A stretch of 64,000 bases of DNA from contig NC_068575.1 in the NCBI RefSeq assembly GCF_025698545.1, positions 59,901,980-59,965,979 on the forward strand, given 5' to 3'. Below the pieces are notes generated by a model, which saw only the letters and a program-made list of their open reading frames with translations, did not search any database and was not told the DNA's origin. A program made the translations under genes and the position numbers. Positions 33,870 through 53,799 of this stretch are shown one piece after another. The stretch is from Gossypium raimondii. Its lineage: Eukaryota; Streptophyta; Magnoliopsida; Malvales; Malvaceae. How positions within the stretch are numbered: position 1 is the stretch's first letter; each line of letters starts with the position of its first letter.

Positions 33870-34986
33870 TGGGGCCGTAAACAAAGATTCAAAGAAGAGA
33901 TATTTCAAGAAAAAAGAAGACTTTAATATTAAAAAAATAGAAAACACTGGTTTCCGAGTTGGGAGATTTTTTTTTTCTGAAAGCTCCGAATTTGTGAGCG
34001 ACGGAAAGACCCGGACTGCGCTGTCTGAAATATGACCTAGCTGATTGTTATATGTTGGGCTGGGAAGGAATGAGGGTGAGTATTTGAGTTGAGTATATAA
34101 AAAGAAAAAAAAAATTTAAGTTACATTAATACTCATTTAATTATATTTTTTTCACTTAATTATAAAAAATAACAAAATAATCATGGAATTATTTTTTATC
34201 ACTCAATTATCTTATATTTTTAGTTTTTCATTTTTATGTTTTTAAATTTTATAAGCTTGGTTTGATATGGTAATTTTTTATTAAGTGCATATTAAATTAG
34301 ATTAACTCAATCAATAAAAATATACCATACTAAAATTATTTTCTCATTTAATTATAGTGTGTTCTTGTTCTAGTGACAAATTATTAAATTTTTTTATCAT
34401 TAGCATTATGAAACTTGACTTTTCTTATCATTCCTTTGTTAAATATATAATGAAATGCTAACGTGGATCATTTTGATACACTTAGATGCATTAAGTGGAT
34501 TAATTTTATTACCTAATTTTTTAAAATTTATATATTTTGTCATTCAGTTTACTCACAGTATTCTTTGCTCTTTTCACAAGATTCATAATTGATACGTGTT
34601 GACTGGGTTAAAATGTTGACTATGATAATTTTTATTGTGCGATATCGATAAAAGAAATTATTAAATTAAATGATAAACTACCTTAATAATTACTCATCTT
34701 TATACAAAAGTTAACATGGATATTAGAAATGATATCATTGGAAATTATATTCAAATTATTATTTTTAAGTGAATCAATGCTTTTGGTTTAAAATTTTTAT
34801 TAAGTAAAGTAGACTATTTTTCTCAATTCTAAGAAAATAAATCGATTTTGTAAAGAAACAAAAATCACGTCTTATTAGAAGCATTTTTTGCTGACCCGGT
34901 AGCCAAGAGTTGAAAGTTCTTTCCAAATTTTCAATGCACATAAAAAATTTCCCTTAGCTGACACCTCAGTAAAAAATGCTTTCGGC
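33870..34986. other. RH30 upstream region with degenerate foldback sequence
   Basis: RH30 leader and promoter, then AT-rich DNA (about 34090-34700). That DNA carries phrases typical of Mutator-type foldback elements ('ttaattataaaaaataac', 'gtcattcagtttactcac'), but I cannot define ends. No gene seen. Confidence 0.45.
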
Positions 34987-35370
34987 TAGGGGTAAGTATT
35001 CAATTGAGTCGAGTTGAATTGAATCAAAAAATTTTGAGTTAATCGAGTTGATGAATCCTAATTTAGCAATCGAAATCAATTTAAATTTTTTCAAATCGAA
35101 TAAAGTAAAAAAAAATTGGAATCGAGTTAAAGAATCCTATTATTTATACTCAATGTTGCATTTACATGGACAGATTGTTTAACTAGTATACTGAAGTACA
35201 AGATAATTTAATTACATAAACAATATAATTGTGTAATTCATATTCGAGTTAAACTAAAAACTTGATTTTTGTATTCAAAATGATTCAATAACTCGATTAA
35301 CTTAAATAACTAGAACTATTTAATTCAAATTTAAATTTTTATCGAGTTTTTCAATCGAATCAATTCCTCC
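34987..35370. mobile_element. hAT-type MITE copy, right end lost
   Basis: It begins TAGGGGTAAGTATTCAATTG and continues with GAGTCGAG/GAGTTAATCGAGTT blocks shared with the better bounded copies at 40946-41422 and 49908-50433. The matching right terminal repeat and target duplication were not found, so this copy is truncated near 35370. Confidence 0.6.
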
Positions 35371-35703: not shown

Positions 35704-36503
35704 GGGTAAACTACACCCATAGTCATTTTTGTTTACCTTAGCTTACATTTCAGTCATTTATGTTTGAAATGTTACATTTTAGTCACTTACGTTACCGTGT
35801 TGTAACATTTTAGTCACTGAGCCGTTAATTGTCGTTAATGGTGTAATGGTAAGCTGACATGGCACGTTAAATCATCATTTCAAACAAAAACTTTAGGTTA
35901 AATTATACAATTGGTCCCTATAATTTTTCGTTTTGAGCAATTTAATTCTTTTATGTTCCTTTTACTTTCTTTCTTTTTTTTTTTTTCCATTCTCTTTTGC
36001 TTCTCCCTCTGTTTTTCTACCTTTTTTTTTTATTTCTTTTAACATATCAAGAAGTCGAATTGGTAGTGAAAAAAGAAGCATGGTATGGGTTTATGGGTTT
36101 TGGTTATAGGCAAATGATGACAGTCGACTTCCTACTTCTTTTTTCATTGCCAATTCGACTTCCTAATATGTTAAAAGAAATGAGAAAGGTATGAAAACAG
36201 AAGGAGAAACAAAAGAGAATGGAAAAAAAGAAGAAAGTTTAAAGAACATAAAAGAAAAAAAATTAAATTACTTAAAACAAAAAAATATGGGGATTAATTA
36301 TATAATTTAACCTAAAATTTTGTTTGAAATGATGATTTAGCGTGCCACGTCAGCTTACCGTTACACCATTAACGACGATTAATGGCTCAGTGACTAAAAT
36401 GTTACAACATGATAACGTAAATGACTAAAACGTAACATTTCAAACATAAGTGACTAAAACATAACCTAAGGTAAACAAAAGTGACCATGGGTGTAGTTTA
36501 ACC
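35704..36503. mobile_element. Complete Mutator-type foldback element, 800 bp
   Basis: It starts GGGTAAACTACACCC and ends as the complement of GGTTAAACTACACCC. The flanks are identical 9-bp duplications ATAAATAAA (35695-35703 and 36504-36512). The inverted arms are very long, nearly 390 bp each, and pair up to a small loop around 36085-36115. The 9-bp duplication and long inverted repeats fit a non-autonomous Mutator (MULE) element. It is the same family as the inflated copy at 40754-50547. The 65-codon ORF at 35997-36194 falls in the arms and loop and is not a gene. Confidence 0.9.
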
Positions 36504-36763: not shown

Positions 36764-39700
36764 ATGGAATCCGATCTCGTTATCAAGGTTCTTTTTTTTT
36801 TCTTTTATAATTCATCCATCTTTTTTTCAGGCTGCTTTTTTTTTTATTTCGTCGAAAAGTTTCTATTTTACAGTACTCGGCAGTCTTAAGGACTTTCCAT
36901 TTCAAACTGCCCGTTGTCTTTTCTTTCATCATTTAATTCTGTTTGTTTCCCGAGGAAATGGGGAAGTTTTTTTTTTCCTTTCCAAAATGAGACTGCGATT
37001 GTGCTCATAATTTTTGTTTTCATTGTTTTGAATTGTGGTTATCGCATGCACGTGCAATAGACGTCTTTTTTTTTTACCTCAAAACTATGAGTTGAGGGGA
37101 ATTTCATGTACCTGTGATAATTTCAATGAAGTTTCCCTATCTCCGGGGTGATACATGATCACCCCTAACTGTTCTATGTGAAATCGTTAAATTGATTTCT
37201 TGTTTCCTTGATTTATATATGTCATCGAAACTTAAACCGTAATCCATGATGCTTTGTTTAAATATCTTTTATTTTATATTCCTTGTTTATAATTTTTTGT
37301 TTTCTTTTTTGCTTCGCTAATGATATGGATACAGGTGAAGTATGGAGATACACTAAGGCGTTTCACTGCTTGTATTGATGATGGTGAACGTCGTGGTCTT
37401 AACATGGCTGGACTGAGGGCAAAAATTTCTGGGCTTTTCAATTTTCCTGTTGATACTGAACTTACTCTGACATATATTGATGAAGATGGGGATGTTGTTA
37501 CCCTTGTGGATGATGATGATCTGTATGATGTGATGAGGCAACGCCTCAAATTCTTGAGGATTGATGTGCAGCCGAATAATGATAAGCTTGGTGAACCATG
37601 TGCCGCATCAAGCCAAAGTTCTACCCCTTTGAGATCGCCGTCTTTTCAGCCTCCATCGGAGGGCTTTAATACTGTTGCTGCTGATATTCTGAAATCTGCA
37701 CCGGATCCTCTACGTGGCACTCTAAGTGAAGTTTTATCAAACCTCTCCTCTGATGTTGCTTTGATAGTGGCATCTGCTAGTCCAGTGTTGGGTGATCTGG
37801 TGGAGTGCTTGTCTAAGACGGGACAATCCTACCTTGGTCCTGTTTCGAACTCTGGAGCTGCTGCTGATTCAAGCATGCAACCTGTAGCATCTTCTGTGAG
37901 CCATTGTACCACAGTTGGTGCTACTGACCCAGATCCTTTAGGGGATGGTGGCTTGCGAGTGGTTTTACCTAAATCTACAGATGTCAATTCAACTTGCAAG
38001 GCTAACAAGGAAGGCAATACTGGAAATGCAACAAGAGGTGTGAATGTACCTGCTGTTCCTGATCCTGATTCTATTGATTTGAATGTTGACCCACTTTCTG
38101 ATGCCAACCTGACCGGATGTGCTCCCATGGCTTCTGAACCATCTTCATCGAACATTTTTGCTTGTAATGACCAGAAAAACGCTAAAGAGATCATGGGTCG
38201 TAAGAAGGGAAAGAGTGTTAGCTTTGATACATCAGCTTCCTTTATTGATGCTACGGTGAAATTTTATCCCATCAACGTGATGGGTAAGGATCCTTCAAAT
38301 GAATGTCCCTTCAGTGGAGTGCCAGTAGCAAACGACCCTGTTGCGCCTCCTTCCTTTAGTCCAAGTAAGAGGGTCTTTTCTTCGACTGCTGGAAATGTGA
38401 TGTTTGGTACATTCCACAAGGGAATTCAATGTGATGGTTGTGGGGTTCTTCCCATTGCTGGACCCCGGTTCAAGTCCAAAGTGTAAGAAATGTTCTGTTT
38501 TGAGCGACTGGTCATTCCTTTTGGATTCTGTTTTCAATTGTCAGTGAGTATTTCTCTTAATTTGGAATGCAGAAAAGACGATTATGATCTTTGCAGCATC
38601 TGCTTTTCCAAAATGGGAAATGAAGCTGATTACATCAGAATGGACAGGCCTGTGCATTCCTCTAATCCATGGTTTTGCAGGGCATCAAATGATCCTGTAA
38701 TTTTCTTTGCCTGTAATTTCTTCTTTAACTGTAAACTTCTTTTCAACATCGTATTTGTGCTTTTATAATTTATAGATTCCAAGTGCACTCCCACATGTCT
38801 TGAGGAATCGTGCATTGATGTCAGCTCAGCCTAAGCTAGAAAGTCGCTTCGTCTTGGATGTCAATGTAATAGATGGGACTGTAATGATGCCATCTACTCC
38901 ATTCACAAAGATCTGGCGGATGCGCAATAATGGTACTGTGCCTTGGTTTCATGGTATGCAACTGGTCTGGATTGGGGGAGACAAATTAAGAAACACAATT
39001 TCAGTTGATATAGAGGTAGAGTGTTCTTATCTTTTACATTATTTGCAAGTGCACTGTTTCATGATTTTGTTCAAGGCTGAATGTAATTATTTATCGGTGT
39101 TTCCAACTTATGACATCAGATTCCTCCTGATGGTGTACCTGTTGATGGGGAACTAGATATTGCTGTTGATTTTACTGCACCACAGTTGCCAGGTCGATTT
39201 GTTTCTTACTGGAGGATGGCATCACAAGCTGGCATAAAATTTGGGCAACATGTCTGGGTTCTCATCCATGTAAGCCTTCTGTTTCAGAGCTTTAATCTCT
39301 TGAGGATAAAATCACATTCATTTTTATTATGATTTGCCTATGCAGGTTGATGCTTCTCTTAAGGATATGAATACTGATAACGCTCAGGGATTGAACTTGA
39401 ATTTGCCCCCTGAAAATAGTGGCTCAAGAGACACTGAGGTTTGCAACTCTAATGTAGGCCCTGCACTGGTGAAGCCCCTGATTAATGAACAATCAACAAA
39501 GGAGCAGTCATTAAACAACAGAGATGTTACAACCCCTATTCACACATTATCTTCATTTGCGGCACATTCTCCCATCATTGATCACCAAGATATCTCACTC
39601 CTTGCATTTCCGGAAACTCCATCTCCGTCATCGTTATCATCCTATCCCATCATTGATCTCTCAGAAGCAGCTCTTGATGAGCCGGTGCCACTGTCACCCC

Positions 39701-40094
39701 TGCCTGCACCATGCGAACAAGCACCATCTGAAGAGGAAAGTGAAAATGCTGTTGAGCAAACACTACTAAAGGAGCTTGAAGATATGGGATTCAAGCAGGT
39801 CGATTTGAACAAGGAGATCTTGAGGATGAACGAATACGATCTGGAGAAGTCTATAGATGATCTATGTGGAGTAGCTGAATGGGATCCCGTACTTGAGGAA
39901 CTGCAAGAAATGGTAAATTGTCTGCATAAATTGTGGTCTCCCTTTTATGTTTTTTACTTGGTTGATTAGGATTATGTATTGTTGCGTGGGTGCAGGGTTT
40001 CTGTGATGCAGAAATGAACAAAATGCTGCTGAAGAAGAACAATGGGAGCATCACAGCAGTTGTCATGGATCTTCTAGGTGGAGAAGGGGCTTAA
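36764..40094 (+). CDS. NBR1: Selective autophagy cargo receptor NBR1 (Joka2)
   Basis: Links ubiquitinated or aggregated cargo to ATG8 on forming autophagosomes. Seven exons: 36764-36787, 37335-38482, 38573-38696, 38776-39015, 39120-39269, 39346-39912, 39996-40094; total 2352 nt, 783 residues, somewhat longer than Arabidopsis NBR1 as I recall it. Order: PB1 domain (about 6-90) with both the basic cluster (VKYGDTLRRF) and the acidic OPCA patch (YIDEDGD...VDDDDL), allowing head-to-tail oligomers; a disordered middle; a ZZ zinc finger (about 365-415, CDGCG and CSICF); the four-tryptophan NBR1 domain (about 440-560; IWRMRNNGTVPWFHG, SYWRMAS); a first UBA domain (about 690-735); the ATG8-interacting motif WDPV (741-744); and a C-terminal UBA domain (752-783). 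The first exon is only eight codons, followed by a 547-bp intron. A complete foldback transposon lies about 260 bp upstream. Confidence 0.97.
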
Positions 40095-40315: not shown

Positions 40316-40945
40316 ACATAATACTAATGGATAAAAACCATTAAGTCACTTTTAATTAATTTTGATATTGAGTAAGTTGATCTCTAACAAATATTAATAT
40401 AGTTTTATCAATTTTGAAGACAATTATAGCATTTACTTTCTTTGTCAATTTATCTTATTTTTATTTGATATAATAATAAATTTAACTTTTACAAATTTTA
40501 TTGGTCATGATTTTTAAAATTTCAACAAATTTAACTTTTATTACAAATTGACAAAATATGTAAATATTAAGTGCTATTATATACTAATCAAACTAGGATA
40601 AATTAATAGAAAAAATAAGCACCATGATTATTTTTCCTTAATTGCTTGCTTTTAAAATTTAAAGCGGTTAAATTACTTTAATATTTTTAAAAGATCAATT
40701 TCAAAATTGAAGGGACCGAAAATGTTGCTTTACCAAAATATACTAATGATATCGGGTAAACTATTAAAATAGTCATTTTGTTTATCTCAAATTATATTTT
40801 AATCACTTATATTTGAAATGTTATATTTTAGTCCATTACATTATCGTGTAGTAACATTTTAGTCACTGAACTGTTAATTGCCATTAATGATGTGACGGTA
40901 AACTAACGTGGTATGTTAAATCATCATTTCAAACAAAATTTTAGG

Positions 40946-41422
40946 TAGTGGTGAGTATTCAATCGAGTTGAGTCAAAAAAAATTGAGTTAATCGAGTTGA
41001 CGAATTCTATTTTAGTAATTGAACTCAATTTGAAATTTTTTTGAATCAAATTGAGTAAAACTTTTTGAGTCAAATCGAGTCAAGTTAACAAATCCTATTA
41101 TTTATACTCAATATTGCGTTTACATGTACCGATTATTTAACTAGTAGGCGAAGTACCAAAATGAAGAAGTTTTGTCTTTTAACTTAATGGATTTGACTTT
41201 AATTTTAGAAAAGGTAAACATTTATCAAAACAACGTAGTTTTAACTTTTCTTATTCGGATTTTCAGATAACTCGAACTGTGTAATTTATATTCAAGTTAA
41301 ACCGAAAATTTTGATTTTTTATTCAAGTTGATCTGAATAACTTGATTAACTCGAACTATTTAATTCAAATTTTGAATTTTTTATCGAGCTTTTTGAATCG
41401 AATCGGATTTTGCTCACCTCTA
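40946..41422. mobile_element. hAT-type MITE in left arm, 477 bp
   Basis: The ends TAGTGGTGAG and the complement of CTCACCTCTA (TAGAGGTGAG) form short inverted repeats. Identical 8-bp duplications ATTTTAGG flank the element at 40938-40945 and 41423-41430. The interior has repeated GAGTTAATCGAGTT-like blocks, as in the copies at 34987 and 49908. Confidence 0.88.
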
Positions 41423-41608
41423 ATTTTAGGTTAAATTACACAATTAGTCCCCATATTTTTTTGTTTTGAGCTATTTAAATTTTTTTCTTTTTTAATCAAG
41501 CTTTTTGAATCAAATCAGATTTTGCTCACCTCTAATTTTAGGTTAAATTACACAATTAGTCCCCATATTTTTTTTGTTTTGAGTTTTTTTTTTCATTCTC
41601 TTTTGTTT
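41385..41608. repeat. 112-bp tandem duplication
   Basis: The stretch containing 'ctttttgaatc', 'gattttgctcacctctaatt' and 'acacaattagtccccatatt' occurs twice, with starts at about 41389 and 41501. It copies the right end of the hAT MITE together with adjacent Mutator-arm sequence, so the duplication happened after the MITE inserted. Confidence 0.8.
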
Positions 41609-43229
41609 CTCCCTTTGTTTTCTTCCCTTCTCCGTTTCTTTTAATGTATCAAATAACAAATAAATATCGAACAGGATGGTCTTAAAATACAAACTAGGTC
41701 TTAATAATGTAAGCGACGGAAAGAGAACTCTCTAAATCCTGAAATGAAATGTGTCATAACTAGTCTTAATAAAGAATAAATTATTGTGAAAAACAAAGGT
41801 AAACCCAAAAAAATAGGTAATTAAAAAACTCAAGATCCTTTCCAAAATTAAACCAATTTTTTTCCTTCCCATTTTCCCAAACTATTTGAGCATCCAAACA
41901 CCCCAAAGAGTCCACAAAAAAAAATTTGCTAACGACTTTGCAAGGGTTTTGATATTGCAATCGATCATTTCTTGCTTAGTAGCTCCTTCTTCACTGGGCT
42001 TATCCATAATGATAAGCCAGTGAATAACACCCCTAACCCGAATCCATCTCCGGAATAGGGTTACGGAGCATTACCAAAATTTACAAATTAATTTTCAGAC
42101 ATTTCATTTCATCTAGCATTCATATTTGAAACCAACCAAAATCAAAACATTAATGAGCCAACGTTGGCCAAATTAACTTATACATACCATTATAACCAGA
42201 ATCAAATCATCCAAAATTATCGATAGAACTAATGGATAGTGTGATATATCTCTGACAAGCTTCCAACCCAATCGAGCTTTCGATAATTTGTAGGGTAAAT
42301 AAAAAAAAATACGTAAGCAATGGATGCTTAGTAAGCTCGTGTAGTCTTTAATCATATTAGTTCATTTAAAATATGAAATCTATACATATCAAGAATAATC
42401 CAATAGTAATACCATAGTACTCATGAAGCTATATTCATCAACTCAAAATGTGAATAAATTCACAGTATCACTTACATATTATCCCAAGCTTAGTAGGACT
42501 TTATATAACTTTAACTCTTCATAATTTCTTTATTTTCATTTGCATTTCTTTACTTTCCACACTTATTCCATATGCGTGACACACAAGTCATAAACATATC
42601 ATTCAATCATAGTCACAAGCTACTGCATTTAACTAAAGCCTTTACCGAATTGATCACATGGTAAGTCATTTCATAATTTAAACCATACCACTTTTTCAAG
42701 AACACTAGCATATTTTCCTTCAAATACTTATCAATTCAATGCTTCCATTAAATAATCATATTACTATTCAACCAATAGCTTGGCACTTGCCTAAGCATCA
42801 AGCAACAACACTGGTTAGTGTACTTGCACACATTACATATAAACTCACTATGCATAATTTTCTTGTATCAACATATTAAAGATAATCATACATTTACATG
42901 TCATGATACATATCATTCTCTTATCGTTTCTTCATAGGTATATATCATTCATTTTATTATTTCGATATTTCATGTACCATCATTTTCATGAATTTCGCGT
43001 ACATACCGGTAATAGTTCATTTCAAACTCATGTTATCTCATTTCAGAAATTTATCCATTGTATCATTTAAATATCAATGGTTACATTTATTTTAGATCAA
43101 TACTAATAATAATCTATAAATCTTTCAATTCAACCACATAAGTCTTTTACCGTTTCTTTCTGTATCGAAGAACGACTTACGGATATGAGTACATCGTTTT
43201 CAGAAGCCCGAAGGCTGAACTTAAGCTCA

Positions 43230-43770
43230 TGAGAGCTAAACAGATAGTAAACACGAAAGTCCGCAACAAATGCTAAACCTCGGTTTACTTGGGTAATTTG
43301 CCGTCAATTCATCCTTTACATTTGTAATGCCATAACCCAGTTATGGTCTTATCCGTCAATTCATCCTTTAGCACAGAACGATTGTACTCAATCCCGCGTT
43401 CAATCCAAACTGGGTATTAAATTCGATAATATATTTCCAATAATAATTCAATTCCATGTTTTCTATTACCCTTATTATTTTCCATATTTATCCCGTTAAA
43501 TTTTCGGAAATTCGATGGATTTTCAGAGGTACACTTTTAGTATACAAATCTGGGTCCATCAATTCATATTCATGTGCGCACATTTTCATTTCAGAGAGCA
43601 CACTCCCGCGAACCTTATCCTTACAGCGGGATTATCAGTCCAGGCTAAATCCCCTGCAATGACAATTACTCTAATGAGCTTGGATCTAAATTATCAGTCC
43701 GGGCTAAATCCATTTTCCACATATTCTTTGGGAGGACTATATCAGTATAGGATCACCCGTCCAGGATAGA
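43230..43770. repeat. Imperfect repeats inside outer LTR
   Basis: The phrase 'cgtcaattcatcctttac/ag' appears twice around 43302-43372. A 'tatcagtcc(a/g)ggctaaatcc' phrase appears twice around 43630-43710. These are variable tandem-like modules of the kind seen in cotton gypsy LTRs. Confidence 0.6.
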
Positions 43771-46603
43771 TCCTTTTTACCGTCAATTCCTTTTCAAAAA
43801 TCCATCGAATTTTCCTTCCATTCAACCAAGATTTCTTCCCCTTTTTATCAAATATATCAATGTTTCATCAATTTTCATACAATGAACATTCAAATCATAT
43901 TCACATCAATAACAAACATTTCAAGCATTTAAGAATATAATTCAAGTTACACAAACTTACTGGGCTAAATTGCAAAATATCAAAATTGTGGACATTTTGG
44001 TAATTTTTCATTTTTCTCAATTTCCACCTAAATATTGATAAAATTAATATTTCATTCAATTTATTAATTTAAATGATAAAACAATTCATTTCATGCAATT
44101 TGGTTATTTTTGACATTTTACAAAATTACCCTTGAAATTTTACTTTTATTCAATTTAGTCCCCGAACCTAAAACATGTAAATTAGATATTTTAAAATAAA
44201 ATCATATTATCTGAATATTCACATATATTTTCCTCCTCCTCCACTCCATTCCACATCCTTGATATATACATAATACCACTATTTACTTGTTTACTCATAA
44301 CAAGCTATTCATTGGAGTCATAGTCACTAAATTAATTATATCTTAAGCTACAGAACTCCGAATTGAGATATGAAAATTTTATCTGAAGCTAGACTCACAT
44401 ATATTCTTACCATAAAATTTTCAGAATTTTTGGTTTAGAAAATAAGTACAACTTATTCTTTAAAGTTTCCCATGTTTCACTGTTTGACAGTTCTGACCCT
44501 CTTCACTAAAAATTAATTATCTCTTTGTACAGAATTCATATGATGTTCCCATTTGTTTCTATTGAAAATAGACTCATTAATGATTTTAAAATATAAATTT
44601 AAGCCTCTAATTATTTTTATTCAATTTTTATGATTTTTCAAAGTTAGAACTGGGGAACCCAGATTCATTCTGACCTTGTCTCACAACATTTATTATATCT
44701 CATGATTTACAATTCCATTACTTACACTGTTTCTTCTATGATAAACTAGACTCAATGAGATTTAATTTGATATTTTTTCATCCTCTAATTCTATTTCCAC
44801 GATTTATAGTGATTTTCCAAATTTAACCTACTGCAACTGTCCAAAACTGTTTTAGTGCAAGATGTTGATTACTAAGTTTATAACTCCTTATTCCCTTTCT
44901 CTATAATATTTCTCATCACTTTCATTTATTTTCCTTCACTAATATATCAAGAACGCAAGACCTTATATAAGAAAACTCTACTATAACATTAATTTCCTAC
45001 TTTTTCAATAATATCAAAGTCAAAAATATATTGAAATCTTGATGTTCTTACCTTGCTCTATTGATTTCAATCTTTAACTTGATTCTCTCTCTCCTCCAAC
45101 CTCTATTTCTTGAATCTAACTTGATATTCTAGCTCCCCATGATCTCCTTATCAATTTTCTCTCTTGGTGGCTATGGAAATTTCTTTGATTTCTAAGTGAA
45201 AATAGTGAATTTTTGGTGAAAGGACCAAATTGTAAAGAAAGTAAAATTTTCTTTCTTCTCTTCTCTTTTAACGATGGTTGCATGGAAAGATGATGATTTT
45301 TCATCATCTTTCTTCCCTTTTATATTAATCATTTAATAATAAAATAATACTAAAAATCTTAATAAAATATTAAGTAAATAACATTTATCTAATTAATTAA
45401 TTAAAAATATCACAAACATCATCTGTAACACCCCTTACACGTATTCAACGCCGGAATAGGGTATGAGGCATTACTAGAACACTTACACATGTTAGCCGAA
45501 TAAACATATAGCGTAAGCATTATAAGTATGGCCGAGTTCAACATTTATTCATGTATCAAACTTACCAACATGAGTTAATCTATAAACCATTCATGGCCTT
45601 ACTTCGTACCAAATATACCACACTCACATACTATGAAATTTTATTTTCCCATATGAGCTTAAACCATGATCATCACATATCAAAGACAAATGTTCTTGAC
45701 ATTTCCATTACATAAACCGAATTAATCAATGCAACTCAATGATATAATCAGCCATATATTATTATTATCATACACATATATATATCATGACTAAATTTCT
45801 TAAACATTTGGTCAATTGCTTTTCAAAACCGCAATAGTTCTTCAGTACCAATACGTATTTACCATTCAATTTAACATTTACCGATTAAAATCGGGCATAT
45901 GACCATTTATACACAATTCATTCATACATTTTATTGTCCTCCTCCTCCTCTCCATTCCACATCCTTAATGTGTATATCACATTTAAACAACATTAACTAT
46001 AATTTCACTATTCACTAACATGTATATTCAAAGCTGTCTATTCGAGTCATAGTCACTAAATTATTTTTACCTGGAGCTACAGAACTCTAAATTAAGATCC
46101 GTAAATTTTCTCCAAAACTATATTCACATATCTTCTTACCATAAAATTTTCAGAATTTTTGGTTTAGCCAAATAGTACAGTTTATTCTTTAAAGTTTCCC
46201 CTGTTTCACTGTTTGACAGTTCTGACCTCTCTTCACTAAAAATTAATTATCTCACTGAACAGAATTTGGATATAGTTTCCGTTTGTTTCTCCTAAAAATA
46301 GATTCACTGATAATTCTAAACATATAAAATTTATCCCATAATTATTTTTGTACAATTTTTTACAATTTTCCAAAGTCAAAACAGGGGATTCCAAACTCAT
46401 TCTGACTTTGTCTAATTAAACTTCAAATATCTCAAAATATATAACTCTTTTGCTTTCTCTATTTCTTTTATGTGAAAATAGACTCATTTAGCTTCAATTT
46501 AATATATTATTCAGCCTCTAATTAAATTTCCACCATTTTTGGTGATTTTTCAAAGTCACACAACTGTTGCTGTCTAAACTATTTTGTTGCTAATTGTACT
46601 CTT

Positions 46604-47225
46604 TAGGGGTGTGCATAATTCGGGTAAAACCGAAAAAATTCGGTTAACCGACCGAATTCGGTTAATCGGTCAGTTAACCGAATTTTTTCGTCGGGGTCGG
46701 TTAATTTTTATGATTTTTCGTTAACGGTTAATTCGGTTCGAAACCGTCGGTTAATCAAAATTTTCGTTAACCAAAAAATTAATAAATAAAATTATCCAAC
46801 CCAGCCCAAACTCAATTACCCAACCCAATTACCCAACCCAATAAAACTAAAACTAAAGTTTACCCAATTACCCAATCCAATAAAACTAAAACTAAAAAAC
46901 AACCCAATTTACTAAAGTCTAAAACCCAATTTACTTTAATAATTTATAAATTTTTTAAATTTTAAAAATAAAAAATAAAAAAATTTCAGGTAATTCGGGT
47001 ATTTTTCGATAATTCGGTTAATTCGGATAATTCGGGTAATTTTTAACCAAAAATAAAAAATACATAATTTTCGGTTAATTCGGTTAACCGACCTTATTAA
47101 CCGAAAAAATTTCGGTTCGGTTAATTTTTTTTTTTAAATCGGTTCGGTTAACGGTTAAAATTTTTGGAAGGTCGGTTAATTCGGTTATAGTAATTTCGGG
47201 TCGGTTAACCGAATGAACACCCTTA
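46604..47225. mobile_element. hAT-type MITE inside the inner LTR, 622 bp
   Basis: The left end TAGGGGTGTGCAT and the complement of the right end TAAGGGTGTTCAT form inverted repeats. Identical duplications GTACTCTT lie at 46596-46603 and 47226-47233. The interior consists of many short 'cggttaaccgaa', 'aattcggt' and 'acccaa' motifs and no coding. The ends and 8-bp duplication indicate hAT. Confidence 0.88.
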
Positions 47226-47414
47226 GTACTCTTTCATAATTTCACTTTTTCACTTTCAATCACAATTCAATTCAAAATTCACTTTTCCATTTCTAAGTCG
47301 ATATTCAATTCAGTTCCACACCTTTATTCATTATTCAATTACACTTAGTCAATTTCCCGTTGAACACTCGGAATTTACATGGATACGTAGAGAATTAGCA
47401 CATAAGTGCCACAC

Positions 47415-47515
47415 TGATATGTAGCCGGTTACCATCGAAATGTAGCCGGTTACCATCGATATGTAGTCAGTAGCTACCATCGATATGTAGCCAAGCTACC
47501 ACCGATCAATAACAC
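47415..47515. repeat. Short tandem repeat in inner LTR
   Basis: Four diverged copies, 22-31 bp long, of 'atgtagccggttaccatcga', comparable in kind with the 43-bp and 31-bp blocks of the LTR relic at the window start. Confidence 0.8.
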
Positions 47516-49253
47516 TGAAATGTCTACGGCCTGCTCACACAAGTCGTCAGTGTCTGCAACACATGCTAGATCACCCAGAACCCGGGACTCACTGTAACAC
47601 TGATCTCTAGTGACATGTCACTTGTATCCACTTCTATTCCTAAGTTCAACTGGGAATTTACACTTAACACTTTATTTTCAACACTTTAACACTTGGATAA
47701 TTCATGAATAATTTTCCTTCCACATTTAATATTAATTCACATATCAAATATAATTCACAATTTATAAAAATATAACTATTATTTACACGTAACTTACTTT
47801 GATGCAACAATATAAAAATTTAGCAATTTAGTCTTTAATCTTTTCTTTTCTCCGGTCAAGGTCGATTCCACTTCTTTCTTAATCTATAATAACACATTTG
47901 ACTTATTTAGTACTCACATTTATTAAAACAGTCCTTGACCCAAACTTTGGTAAAATTTCAATTTTGCCCCTAAACTTTTGTATATTTACACTTTTGCCCC
48001 AAAGCTCGTAAATTAAACTTCATCTCTTATTCTTATGTATTATGACATGCTGAACATTTTTCCCTTCTATGGCAACATCAATTTGCCACTCTAACACTTA
48101 CTTATGAACATTTAGCATTTTTATCGATTATGTCGTTTTACTAGTTTTCACTGAAAATCGCTTAGCAAAAGTTGCTTAACATAATTTCTAGCTTCATATT
48201 ATACCATAAAACATCAAATAAACATTTTTCACATATGGGTATTTTTCCAAATATAAACCCTAAATTAAATTATTACTAGAATAAGCAAAATCAAGTTACC
48301 GGGACTCCAAAAACGTAAATAACATTAAAAACGGGGCTTAGAATCACTTACTATGGAGCTTGGAAGCTTGAAAACCCTAAATATGGTTTCCCCCTTGCTG
48401 ATTTCGTTCACCATGGAGAAGATGAGCACAATTTGCCATCTTTTTCCCTTTTAATTCATTTTAATTACTAGATTACCAAATTGCCCCTAACTTAAAAATT
48501 TCTTATTTCACTTGTCTCATGCCCATTTTTGTCTACCAACTTAACCAATGGTCTAATTACCATATAAGGACTCCAGTTTAAAGTTTCATAACAATTGAAC
48601 ACCTCTAACATGTAGAACTCAACTTTTGCACTTTTTACAATTTAGTCCTTTTGACTAAATTGAGTGCCCAAACGTCGAAATTTTCGAACGAAATTTTCAC
48701 AAAATCATTCTGTGAAATTGTAGACCATAAAAATATAAGAAAAATAAATTTTTCCTCATCGAATTTGTGGTCGCAAAACCACTGTTCCGACTAGGCCCAA
48801 AAATCGAGCTGTTACATCATCATTACCTTCTAGAATTCTCTCTCTATTTGGCCATTTTGCCCTTCATAATCTTTTGAAATTCCATCATTGAGTCATCACT
48901 TACTTTGGTAAAATTGTAATTTAGTCCCTCAAAATTCTTCACATTTTCAATTCGGTCATAATTCATCCATTTTCCTTAGTTTCTAGATTATTCCACCCTT
49001 AAAATATTTACACTATTGGTCATTCAACTTTTTCACATTTACACTTTAACCCCTCAAATTTTGAGTATTTACTCTTGGGCAACAAAACTTCTCACTTTCG
49101 CAATTTAATCCTTTCTTGAATTAATATGTCATAATATACTTCCCAATGTTGACATAACTCAATATTACCCTTTTTATCACTTTATTTCCTTATTTTATTA
49201 TATCAGAGATATTATCTTACTTTCCTTACTGTAGAAATTTTCGAAGTATTACA

Positions 49254-49899
49254 TAGTGCTCATAATCACAACTTGAAAACAGCAGGGCCATTTCAATCGG
49301 TAGTTGGTTGCTGAAGTTCGATCCAAAGTTGAATGGGGAGTAAACGGAGTTCTCAAAATGGTTGACGTGGCATCGGATGGAGGTGAAGCGCGTGGGGGCA
49401 AGAGGGAGACATCAGACGGCATGTGAAAGAGGGGTAAAAGGGTAGCGGGAGAAGTAGAAGGAAGGTATGGGAGGAGGATAGGTGATGAATTTGGAGGATA
49501 GGAGACATTTGAGGAGGAGAAATGATAGAGTAATGTGGCATGTGAGGGTGGATGTGGCGGCACGTGTAAGGGTTTGTGCCATGATGAGTAAGAGATTGAA
49601 TTTGATCAGAGTCAAGAGTGTAAAAGAGGATAAGCTGAGAGAAGGTTTGTGCCATCCTGTTTGATACGCTAAAAGAAGTGGAGAAGGAAGGAAAATAAAG
49701 AGATAAGCGGAAGAGAATGAAAAAAAAAACAAAAAAGAAAGTTAAAAAGAACATAAAAGAAAAAAAATTAAATTGCTAAAAACGAAAAAAATATGAGGAC
49801 TAATTGTTTAATTTATCCTAAATTTTTTGTTTGAAATGAATATTTAACGTGCCATATTAGCTTATCGTTACACCGTTAGCGATAATTAACGATTCGATG
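49254..49899. other. Interior and right arm of the large Mutator-type element
   Basis: Purine-rich sequence (about 49370-49740), then right-arm sequence pairing with 41583-41650 and 40860-40940. ORFs on either strand here are low complexity and carry no domain. Confidence 0.6.
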
Positions 49900-49907
49900 A
49901 CTAAAAC

Positions 49908-50433
49908 TAAGAATGGGCAAAACTCAATTTGATTCGAAAAAGTCGAAAAAATTTTGAATTTCGAGTTAATCAATTAAAGTTATTCAAGTCAATTCGAATA
50001 AGTAATTCAAGTTTCGAATTCAAATTGAGTTAAATTTTACAATTCGAATAATTTGATTAACAGATTGATGTAAATACACTTTTGGTCCCTATCAAGTTTG
50101 AAAATAAACAAATTAGTCTCTTAACAAAATTACAAAAAAAATCCAAAAAAAATTCAAAATAATTGTTAAAATTCAAAATACTTATAAAAATTTCAAAATG
50201 ATTCTAAAAATATATAAGGAAAGTTGAATTAAAAATTTCTAGAATAATAATTTTGGACCTAAATAAGTTAATTTGACATGTTTTATTTTTTAATTTAACT
50301 CGAACAATTTCACTCGATTTGACTCGACTCGATTCGAAAAAAATTTCAAATTAAATTAGAATGATAAAATAAAACTTGCTAACTCGATTAACTCGATATT
50401 TTTTCACTCGATTCAATCGAATGCTTACCCCTA
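49908..50433. mobile_element. hAT-type MITE in right arm, 526 bp
   Basis: It starts TAAGAATGGGCAAAACTC and ends GCTTACCCCTA. The flanks ACTAAAAC (49900-49907) and ACTAAAAT (50434-50441) agree in seven of eight bases. The interior shares ACTCGATTAACTCGA-type blocks with the copies at 34987 and 40946. It sits at a different arm position from the left-arm MITE, so it is an independent insertion. Confidence 0.75.
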
Positions 50434-50706
50434 ACTAAAATGTTACAACACAATAACGTCATTGAGTAGAACATAACATTTCAACATAAATAACTAAAAT
50501 GTAACCTAAGGTAAAAAAAAAAAAGTGACTATTTTGGTAGTTTACCCAATGATATCAATTCATTTTGAGAAATAAAATTTAAGAAATTATAAGGCGAAAT
50601 TCCCCTAATATGATTCATCAGAATCTTACCACCCACAAGAGAAAAAAAATGGTAATAAGCTGAAATTGGTCATTCCATCTGTCTTCGAAAGTAACAAAGC
50701 AAAAAA

Positions 50707-52569
50707 TCAAGCAGTAGATTTGGTGCCAAAGAGTTGAGATGTTTTAGGATGATTACGAATATGATGAGGGCATTTATATAGCAGATCTTGTGCCTCAGTA
50801 TGTCTACCTTCCTCCAAAAATGATTCAAGAGTATGAAGGTAAGCTCCAATGCTTGGATATTCCTTCACACTCAATGCTTTCAAGAACTCCACAGCGTCCT
50901 CCACAGTCCCCTGCTTTGAAATATATTGAACGAAAGGTTCAGGGTAAGGTGGGTAGTTTTGTTTCTTCATCAACTTAAGAAGGTTCATCGATTCTTCGAG
51001 TTTTCTTTTCCCCAGAAGCTTCTCTATAAGAAGTTTAAATGTTGCTTGCCAAGGTCTTAAGTGAACTACATTTACCATCTCCACCAGCAATTTGTATGCA
51101 CCATCTACTCTATTCTGACTGATGAAACTGTTTATTAAGACATCCAACAAGTCAGCATCCGCTTCGCAGGTTTTCACCATCTTTGCGAAACACATCAATG
51201 CATCATCGATCTGATTAGCATCACAATGGCCTTGAATCAAAATAGTCCATGTCTTGATATCCGGACAGCATCCATTTGCTTTCATTTCATCCAACACTTT
51301 GCAGGCTTCTTCGAGTCTTCTTGCTTTACAAAGTCCAAACACCAGTTGGCTGTACGTAATGTTATCAGGTTCGCACCCAGCATTTTTCATTGCTTTCATG
51401 ATCTTCTCCGCTTCATCAAACTTACCCACCTTGGTTAAAGAACGATGAATCCCGTCATAAATAGCCTTGGACAGTGAATATCCAGCAGCCTCGTATTTAT
51501 TCACTACCCTGAACACCAAACTCAAATCTTGTCCATCAGCACTGGAAATGCTCCGTAAGAGTAAGCTGCAATCTTGTGCTGAAGGCTTATATGGACCATC
51601 CATCATGATTTCATAAAGTTTCACAGCATCCTCCAACATCTTAAACTTCTGAAAGTTCCTCGAAACTTTTATATACGTATCGATATCCATCTCAAATCCT
51701 TCACCTTTCATCTCATCAACAACACCCCAAAACTCAGCAATAGAATCAAGCCTAGCAAGAACCCTTATAAGAGCATTGTAAGTAACTGTATTATGCTTAT
51801 AATTCGAACCCTTACTGGCCCAATGAAAAAACTGTAAACCTTTCCTAGGGTAAGTTCTAAGTTCCTTCAACACCCTTATCACTAAATTATCAGACAAATC
51901 AGTTCCCATACCATCTAATATTTTCTCAGTCTCACTGCTCCATTCATCCCCAGCAATAACATCAGCTACCTTACGAGCAATACTATCCTTAGCATTCTCT
52001 TCAACCATCCTTTTATAAAAATGGGTTAAGGCCACAACATCACTAGGCATCTTATTGTTTCTAAAAGAAGAATGGATTGTATAATAAGTTTCTTCGTCAA
52101 GATAAAAACCCAGGTCCTTCATTTCCCTTAAAGTTATCCAGAACTCTTTCATTGTGGCTTTATTAGCAAAAATCCTAAGCATAAAGCTATAGACAGAAGA
52201 ATTGGGTTTAAACCCATTTTCTTGACGCACCCAATTGAAGAAACTCGATGCCTTTTTGGAGTCTTTATCGAGTTTCTTAAGAACATAGATGACAGTTTCA
52301 TGAGTCAATGCAGATTTAAACTCGTGTAAGGAGGTTTCTAACTCGCCAGACCAATCGTTGGTCAGAATGAGTTGAAGCAACGAGTTGGGTTTTGTAGAGA
52401 AGGAAAGGCTTTGATGGATGTTGGTTAGAAGAGAAGAGTGTGATTGAAACGAGAGCTGTGAAGAGAAGCGAGTCACCTGAGAGGAGAAGGAAGGAGTTGA
52501 GGTGAGTCGAGTGGAAAGAAGCGAGTTGGCTAACCTGAGTGAGGAGAGGATTGCCTTGGACCGATTCAT
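50707..52569 (-). CDS. Pentatricopeptide repeat (PPR) protein, P type, organellar
   Basis: One uninterrupted 620-residue ORF without introns, as usual for plant PPR genes. The first 60 or so residues are rich in Ser, Leu, Arg and Thr with few acidic residues, fitting a mitochondrial (or plastid) targeting peptide. From about residue 95 there are repeated 35-residue PPR helices, the clearest being 'NTVTYNALIRVLARLDSIAE', 'DNITYSQLVFGLCKARRLEE' and 'DIKTWTILIQGHCDANQIDD'. No E, DYW or SMR domain follows; the protein ends in a degenerate repeat region. Such proteins bind organellar RNA and act in splicing, stabilisation or translation. It recalls the Arabidopsis At3g48250 (BIR6)/At3g02490 group, but I could not verify that. 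Confidence 0.93.
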   Translation of the reverse strand: MNRSKAILSSLRLANSLLSTRLTSTPSFSSQVTRFSSQLSFQSHSSLLTNIHQSLSFSTKPNSLLQLILTNDWSGELETSLHEFKSALTHETVIYVLKKLDKDSKKASSFFNWVRQENGFKPNSSVYSFMLRIFANKATMKEFWITLREMKDLGFYLDEETYYTIHSSFRNNKMPSDVVALTHFYKRMVEENAKDSIARKVADVIAGDEWSSETEKILDGMGTDLSDNLVIRVLKELRTYPRKGLQFFHWASKGSNYKHNTVTYNALIRVLARLDSIAEFWGVVDEMKGEGFEMDIDTYIKVSRNFQKFKMLEDAVKLYEIMMDGPYKPSAQDCSLLLRSISSADGQDLSLVFRVVNKYEAAGYSLSKAIYDGIHRSLTKVGKFDEAEKIMKAMKNAGCEPDNITYSQLVFGLCKARRLEEACKVLDEMKANGCCPDIKTWTILIQGHCDANQIDDALMCFAKMVKTCEADADLLDVLINSFISQNRVDGAYKLLVEMVNVVHLRPWQATFKLLIEKLLGKRKLEESMNLLKLMKKQNYPPYPEPFVQYISKQGTVEDAVEFLKALSVKEYPSIGAYLHTLESFLEEGRHTEAQDLLYKCPHHIRNHPKTSQLFGTKSTA

Positions 52570-53799
52570 GATTGCTGTTCAGAGATAGAGAGCAGCGAAG
52601 ACAAGGATGGCAATTGGAAAATTGGAATAGAAGGGGATTTCAAGGGTTTAAGACTCGATGAAAGTTCTTTTGTTTGGCTCCATGCACCTGTGAGAGAAGA
52701 GAAGGGAAGGTTACCCGGTTACTTTGGGTCGAACCCAGCCCATCAATTTTGGGTAAGCCCTTTTATTTATTTCAAGGATTTTTTTCTAAAATATTAGTAA
52801 TTACTAGTACAAGGTTTATAAAAAAAGTATTATTTTAAATGAATTATTATTGTCGAGGCTTTAGGTTATTGAGTTTAAATTCGATACACATCACGCATAA
52901 TTATTATGTTTATGCGTGGGTTTCTAGTTTTATTAGAGTGTTGTTTTCATGTTCATTTCAGTTTGCTTACTTTTTTATCTTTTGTATTCATTTAATTTTA
53001 CTTTGTAATTATTTGATTATGTATTTCTGTTTAAAATAATAATTCTATGAGTATTCGTATTCGTATTATTAAATAAATTTATACTATTACCTACATCTAT
53101 ATATTATTATAATGGTCATGGATTAATCTGGCAGATGGAAAAGATTTAATTTTTTAAAAAGAATTATTATTATTATGACGGTGTTTTGTTTTTTTTATAT
53201 GAAATCTTTAAATAAAAATACTAAAATAAATCAAAAGTCTAAGGGTGAAACTCAAAATTGATAAAAAAAAATTGTATGTAAAACTTTTACCCCTTCAATT
53301 ATAGTTCATTCATAATAATTTATAAAAATATAATTTTTCCATTAAGATTTTAGGATTCCTCAACCAATCCGTTGGGCCAATATAGGGTTCTGCTGTTCCC
53401 ATATTGCCCGTAAGACCTTTTCTGGGCTTATTAATCGTACACCGATACTCTTCTTCGCATAGAGCTTTGATGGGAGGAAAATAAAGGTCGTGGTGAAGTG
53501 CAAGTGTAAAGTTACCCCATAGCGGAGAGTTTAAAGTGCGAAAAAATAAGGTGGTGCCAAATCTTTAGCGTTGTTGTTGTCGAATCAGTTGGATAATTTT
53601 AATAATGTTTTGAGAAACAAGGTTATTTCGGAGGATGATTTTGTTGTCTTAGTTGATATGATGGAAGATTAGAAGGACGGTGATCAGGATAAGCGGGGTT
53701 AATGCGGATAATTCTATTTAGAAGTCTGGTTTTGAGAACTCTTTCCTAGTTGAAGCGAAATATTTTTTTTGGTGGAATTTGGATACTGTGACAAAAGGA
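52570..53799. other. Intergenic region, PPR promoter at left end
   Basis: Short leader and promoter of the PPR gene, then AT-rich DNA with no supported gene. Confidence 0.5.

Follow-up and report, generated by a model that had tools for sequence, protein, structure and literature searches.

We have found that the stretch C11:59901980-59965979 of Gossypium raimondii (64,000 nucleotides, referred to here as the window) contains a probably non-autonomous Mutator-like transposon of about 1.4 kb that carries a fragment of the MORF2 gene, that is, a Pack-MULE. We are highly confident that this MORF2 Pack-MULE sits between NBR1 and a gene of the PPR family and that it was later invaded, one insertion within another, by an outer long terminal repeat (LTR), an inner LTR and a hAT-type miniature inverted-repeat transposable element (MITE) that we call m2. 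An earlier note on this DNA had described a Mutator-type element with five insertions and six target duplications, and this observation was confirmed, every duplication being at the position given for it. Its interpretation held as regards the nest with its boundaries, the presence of five insertions and the succession of layers along the nested chain, but not for the type of the host, the number of events or the wider order. What this analysis adds is the identification of the host as a Pack-MULE with part of MORF2 as its cargo. All the comparisons were made within one genome of 750,779,957 bases in 281 contigs, in which C1-C13 have 48-63 Mb each.

The host element and its captured DNA comprise the following features (window positions):

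40754..50547, no strand assigned: entire Mutator-type (Pack-MULE) element including its insertions, delimited by a 9-bp target duplication and inverted arms
40745..40753, no strand assigned: left 9-bp target duplication, AATGATATC
50548..50556, no strand assigned: right 9-bp target duplication, AATGATATC, 9/9 bases identical to the left one
40754..41653, plus strand: left terminal inverted repeat, split by the MITE m1 and a 112-bp tandem duplication
49652..50547, minus strand: right terminal inverted repeat, split by the MITE m3; its innermost 15 bases (49652-49666) are intron-derived
41647..42022, minus strand: captured MORF2 DNA, comprising the 3' portion of exon 1 (with residues 109-139 at 41930-42022) and most of intron 1
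49257..49651, minus strand: captured MORF2 DNA, comprising the 5' portion of exon 1, with the start codon position at 49580-49582, and the last part of the 5' untranslated region

The perfect 9-bp duplication bounds the element just as had been proposed. When the two arms were aligned to each other, a check that the earlier note had suggested, they proved to be inverted repeats once m1, m3 and the tandem duplication had been left out, with 81% identity over 302 positions and 53 gap columns, and the local alignment score was 141 against a maximum of 39 in 200 shuffles. Without its inserts the host measures about 1.4 kb by coordinate subtraction, and two of the related copies described below (L050 and L051) are of similar size by coordinates. 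Each terminal repeat accounts for just 0.30-0.35 kb, and the DNA between the repeats is accounted for by the captured fragment and the inserts. The term foldback element, under which the host had been described, was incomplete, and a foldback class, in which almost all of the element would consist of inverted repeats, was rejected because about 0.77 kb of the 1.4 kb is captured, non-repeat DNA. As repeats of this length enclose about 0.77 kb taken from MORF2, the host is a Pack-MULE, and it combines long terminal inverted repeats, a 9-bp duplication, a captured gene fragment and a candidate parental gene that lies outside the element.

The origin of the interior was revealed by its matches elsewhere in the genome. 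The right part was found at five genomic places including itself (six matches, all six candidates scored) and the left part gave six matches longer than 180 bases, itself included, among those listed (40 scored of 742 candidates); the other 47 matches of the left part were short, 45 of them corresponding to the inner end of the repeat, one of the remaining two being the second part of the deleted C9 copy and the other a place at C11:50.551M. Both halves match C3:5183047-5183834 (L049) with 84% identity, and this place has no adjoining Mutator-type repeat, its one repeat match being of 54 bases at 68.5% and about 1.3 kb off. It is a gene: exon 1 begins with a start codon and stays open up to a splice-donor-like GT, and an intron and further exons come after it. 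The joined translated exons match the MORF domain (PF21864, 2.4e-41) and their best solved-structure match is MORF2, chloroplastic (5ydg, 3.2e-58), with MORF9 and MORF1 ranking behind it. In a whole-genome protein search the C3 gene stood alone near 100% (99%), followed by the Pack-MULE copies (63-85%) and then by more distant MORF-like genes. Judged by its sequence, the captured gene is MORF2, a nuclear gene for a chloroplast RNA-editing factor, and the C3 gene is its candidate parent. An anonymous interior was rejected, one of the matching places being a gene without adjoining repeats. The stretch common to gene and window (L049 1048-1835) covers the end of the 5' untranslated region, all of exon 1 and intron 1, the captured intron stopping about 15 bases short of exon 2. 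The outer LTR interrupts the captured exon 1 at residue 108/109, and the MORF domain match starts at residue 107.

The captured fragment was also found between Mutator-type repeats at C11:62.427M, C12:41.785M and C11:50.544M in full and at C9:31.619M in deleted form. The full copies are those of the window, L050, L051 and L052, while L053 is internally deleted, and the family has at least five copies. The captured frame at 49257..49651 contains one premature stop, and stops are present in the captured frame of all four full copies, for which reason we rejected that the captured exon is still coding. The host element probably has no present function.

The nested chain consists of three of the five insertions:

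42023..49253, no strand assigned: outer solo LTR, 3,833 bp without its insert
42018-42022 (CAGTG) and 49254-49258 (TAGTG): target duplication of the outer LTR, 4/5 bases
45424..48816, no strand assigned: inner solo LTR, 2,763 bp without its insert
45419-45423 and 48817-48821 (TCATC): target duplication of the inner LTR, 5/5 bases
46604..47225, no strand assigned: hAT-type MITE m2, in the inner LTR
46596-46603 and 47226-47233 (GTACTCTT): target duplication of m2, 8/8 bases

The outer solo LTR, which had been placed in the element interior on the basis of CAGTG/TAGTG, is now backed by empty sites in related copies, since the site is uninterrupted in four of the five interior copies (L049-L052; 2-base overlap plus 3 unaligned query bases) and the fifth one, the internally deleted L053, gave no usable pair there. 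The gene and the three full relatives have CAATG at this site, versus CAGTG and TAGTG here. A duplication of 4/5 bases is weak alone, its chance level being 2.4e-2, but the ends of this LTR are also fixed by the empty sites and by the limits of its relatives' matches, which mostly start at 42025 when they reach the 5' end and mostly stop at 49253-49255 at the 3' end. Perfect 5-bp duplications at both ends identify eight of the ten outer-LTR relatives as solo LTRs, the other two (L067 and L068) being without them. One outer-LTR relative (L054-L055, C2:43288500-43308000) is itself broken near the middle by an insertion of about 14.5 kb.

The claim of an inner solo LTR flanked by TCATC within the outer LTR stood equally well, as it is missing from 12/12 outer-LTR relatives tested, with an overlap of exactly 5 in ten of them and of 3 plus 2 unaligned bases in L065 and L067. 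Its two relatives in L056 start at 45424, and most 3' matches stop at 48816-48817. L056, at C1:11.47M, is a two-LTR element of the inner family whose LTRs differ at 107/2824 positions (3.8%) and whose outer duplication is GTTAG/ATTAG (4/5), so the inner LTR has both a 5/5 duplication and a two-LTR element in its family, as expected for a solo LTR. Within the inner LTR, the m2 site is uninterrupted in 6/6 loci, corresponding to five distinct inner-type LTRs, with an overlap of exactly 8 (L023 and L025 also show a second, partial pairing further off), and the matches of m2 relatives usually begin at 46603-46604 and end between 47211 and 47229; the hAT MITE proposed at this place is thus real. 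The empty sites in related copies support the order Mutator element, outer LTR, inner LTR and m2 along the nested chain. The outer (44226-44826) and inner (45932-46559) LTRs have about 600 bases in common (85% over 197, 70% over 182 and 79% over 92 bases); the two LTR families are therefore related, and the inner LTR landed in its own relative.

Instead of solo LTRs left by recombination, both LTRs could be independent non-coding elements that are mobile in this form. This explanation, to which we give very little credit, draws on the fact that eight of the ten outer-family relatives stand alone with perfect target duplications, and no full-length outer-family element with two LTRs and coding DNA between them was identified in this analysis. 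Against it, a primer-binding-site-like sequence (TCTGATACCA) stands 3-8 bases away from TGTAACACCCCTAACCC 143 times in forward and 143 times in reverse orientation across the genome, against 0 and 0 in the controls, and the inner family has an LTR pair. The LTR end TGTAACACCCCTAACCC is common to related families and is not specific to the outer one. In L056, CTCTGATACCA is found five bases from one LTR, and we take it to be the complement of such a primer-binding-site-like sequence. By resemblance, both LTRs are presumably Gypsy-like. The 5-bp duplications, the TG start in most relatives and the primer-binding-site-like sequence near the LTR ends are features that these LTRs share with plant long-LTR retrotransposons in solo form.

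The structure of the copies bears on how the MORF2 fragment was acquired. The four full copies have a common right junction, at which a 15-base piece of the MORF2 intron lies inverted at the inner end of the repeat (0 mismatches in L050, 1 in the window, 2 in L051 and 3 in L052), and within the whole window this piece, allowing up to 2 mismatches, occurs solely at the two junction places of the element. The common right junction points to one capture event, in the course of which part of the acquired DNA may have been copied into the opposite repeat, the details of this step being conjectural; acquired DNA built into extended repeats has been described for other Pack-MULEs (PMC3310237). A tree of the captured fragment was built from the four full copies and the gene, L053 being excluded as internally deleted; Kimura two-parameter distances were 0.13-0.17 from gene to copy and 0.15-0.21 from copy to copy, and the inner branches were short (0.005-0.008), which would fit a rapid spread after capture. 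Target duplications were also found in L052 (9/9) and in L053 (9/10). The L052 copy (positions 1936-8650 of C11:50542300-50551900) is likewise split in captured exon 1 by an insertion of about 6.7 kb, at a point that differs from that of the window copy.

It could be argued that the MORF2-like DNA is a decayed gene duplicate in place and that the repeats inserted independently into or beside it, as the fragment is 84% identical to the C3 gene and has exon and intron in their original order. We regard this as even less probable, since the fragment abuts repeats on both sides, the right junction with its inverted intron piece is the same in all four full copies at four different places, exon 2 and later exons have no match at these places among those listed by the protein search, and the 9-bp duplication surrounds the whole. 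Least credible of all is that each arm comes from a Mutator-type element of its own, with unrelated filler between the arms and a 9-bp match by chance, the condition under which the earlier note would have been wrong: the arms are just 81% alike and the repeat family is common (2478 first-look candidates), but the left and right interior form one unbroken stretch at four related places, three of which have repeats on both sides, and a 9/9 duplication is expected in only about 4.5e-5 of random pairs. Because of the unbroken interior in the four related places, we rejected this reading. The chance levels were obtained from 200,000 random position pairs within the window and are 4.5e-5 for 9/9 and also for 8/8 bases, 9e-4 for up to one mismatch in 8, 2e-3 for 5/5 and, as given above, 2.4e-2 for up to one mismatch in 5; together with the empty sites, they led us to reject a chance origin of the target duplications.

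Returning to a captured MORF2 fragment in a Pack-MULE nested by later insertions, several observations weigh against this reading or parts of it. The full copies L050 and L051 have worn termini and no clear target duplication, and the inner support of the captured-fragment tree is weak (52 and 80 of 100), so that a single capture rests on the common junctions. The 5' TG of the outer LTR reads AA (8/10 of its relatives begin with TG), and its duplication has one mismatch. The search with the flanks, in which 40 of 58 candidates were scored, did not show the Mutator insertion site empty anywhere else: apart from the window's own two flanks, the matches cover the left flank only, a dispersed repeat to which they are 70-86% identical, and a single match (C9:31621737-31621903, 72%) extends five bases beyond the join. 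Finally, the branch lengths of the outer and inner LTRs overlap, the longest inner estimate exceeding every outer one, and among the matches listed the outer LTR has its nearest relatives at 94-96%, compared with just 92% for the 3' piece of the inner LTR.

These branch lengths come from trees in which matches with insufficient coverage of the piece, or with a sequence already included, were left out, so that of the 12, 17, 18, 6 and 6 loci given for the LTR pieces, 10, 12, 16, 5 and 5 relatives were kept, plus the window copy. The terminal branch of the Pack-MULE copy is 0.104 substitutions per site, compared with 0.028, 0.014 and 0.031 for three pieces of the outer LTR (11, 13 and 17 sequences, the first two pieces overlapping), 0.017 and 0.036 for two pieces of the inner LTR (6 sequences each) and 0.016 for m2 (4 sequences). 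By this measure the Pack-MULE copy is clearly more diverged than the LTRs. As the branch lengths give no support for outer before inner, that order rests on nesting, and the description of the locus as a relative-dating record is valid for the nesting but not for divergence, which fails to separate the two LTRs. The proposed order held for the nested chain, but m1 and m3 cannot be placed against the LTRs by nesting. The nearest relatives among the matches listed are 81% identical for m1, 76-80% for m3 and 95% for m2, which hints that m1 and m3 may be older, the identity to a nearest relative merely setting a bound on age.

The remaining features are found in the arms:

40946..41422, no strand assigned: hAT-type MITE m1, left arm; target duplication ATTTTAGG at 40938-40945 and 41423-41430, 8/8 bases
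49908..50433, no strand assigned: hAT-type MITE m3, right arm; target duplication ACTAAAAC at 49900-49907 and ACTAAAAT at 50434-50441, 7/8 bases
41370..41593, no strand assigned: 112-bp tandem duplication in the left arm (41370-41481 and 41482-41593)

The two further hAT MITEs that had been reported in the arms are thus supported by their duplications. At the m1 site all 40 other matches run across the join (40 scored of 2478 first-look candidates, some of them representing both arms of one element), and the case for m3 is based on its own duplication, on the duplications of its relatives and on the left arm, which is uninterrupted at the corresponding place. Up to 40 relatives were scored for each of m1, m2 and m3. 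Their 8-bp duplications were perfect in 3/3 cases for m2; for m1, L006 was perfect, L008 agreed in 7/8 bases and the other five of the seven relatives were unclear; and for m3, L046 was perfect, L047 agreed as far as read and L048 was unclear. With 8-bp duplications, short TAG-type inverted ends and many copies, m1, m2 and m3 are hAT-type MITEs; TAGGGGTG-like inverted ends and 8-bp duplications are the features shared with known members of this class, and both were also seen in the m2 relatives (3/3) and in some relatives of m1 and m3. At 40938-40945 and 50434-50441, m1 and m3 have targets that both take the NTTTTAGN form, on opposite strands; this motif is found repeatedly in these repeats, and it is possible that the two MITEs had a common target preference. 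All five insertions of the earlier note stood, but a sixth event had been overlooked, namely the 112-bp tandem duplication; since the duplicated stretch takes in the right end of m1 together with the right-hand target duplication and the repeat sequence next to it, this event must post-date m1.

According to all this, a Mutator-like non-autonomous transposon would have captured the MORF2 fragment and multiplied to at least five copies, presumably with transposase supplied in trans, and the window copy would have inserted between NBR1 and the PPR gene, creating the 9-bp duplication. A long-LTR retrotransposon would then have entered captured exon 1 and been reduced to a solo LTR, a related one would have entered the outer LTR and been likewise reduced, both probably by LTR-LTR recombination, and m2 would have followed into the inner LTR. 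The two other hAT-type MITEs would have entered the arms at times that nesting does not fix, with the 112-bp duplication arising after the left one. It is also conceivable, although we consider it highly improbable, that the MORF2 Pack-MULE family makes or made small RNAs that damp MORF2 and hence chloroplast RNA editing, and that breakage by the LTR partly released this control.

The closest known system to which we compared this element is that of the Pack-MULEs such as tomato PM-ZIBP (PMC3310237), whose description agrees in the long terminal inverted repeats, the 9-bp duplication, the captured host gene fragment, the several copies with one capture junction and the acquired DNA within the repeat ends. 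The cotton element differs in its cargo (MORF2 exon 1 and intron 1), in being heavily nested and in having single repeats, which are tandem in most PM-ZIBP copies. The Gossypium raimondii transposon catalogue GrTEdb contains just 12 Mutator elements, found via transposase similarity (PMC5467567), and Pack-MULE-type elements may be missed there because of this way of detection. Among titles and abstract openings from the accessible literature on Pack-MULEs, cotton and MORF proteins, which does not include most subscription journals, we found no description of the window Pack-MULE, and we do not claim that it is absent from print. The locus offers a well-ordered stack of insertions in a host that is informative by itself, having a candidate parental gene and at least five copies, and its common capture junction records the manner in which the fragment was taken up. 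It is a clean example of known processes, useful but ordinary, with nothing categorically new.

The placement of the nest between NBR1 and the PPR gene, as previously indicated, agrees with the domain matches on either side: PB1, NBR1 Ig-like and NBR1 C-terminal UBA domains match within 37293-39966 on the left, and PPR repeats are found at 50710-52578 on the minus strand on the right. The region 35704-36503, with which a comparison of the arms had been proposed, does belong to the same broad Mutator-type repeat family. This second element has the same ATAA-rich 13 bases at both flanks, and m1-like stretches are present just to its left, at 34973-35361 of the window.

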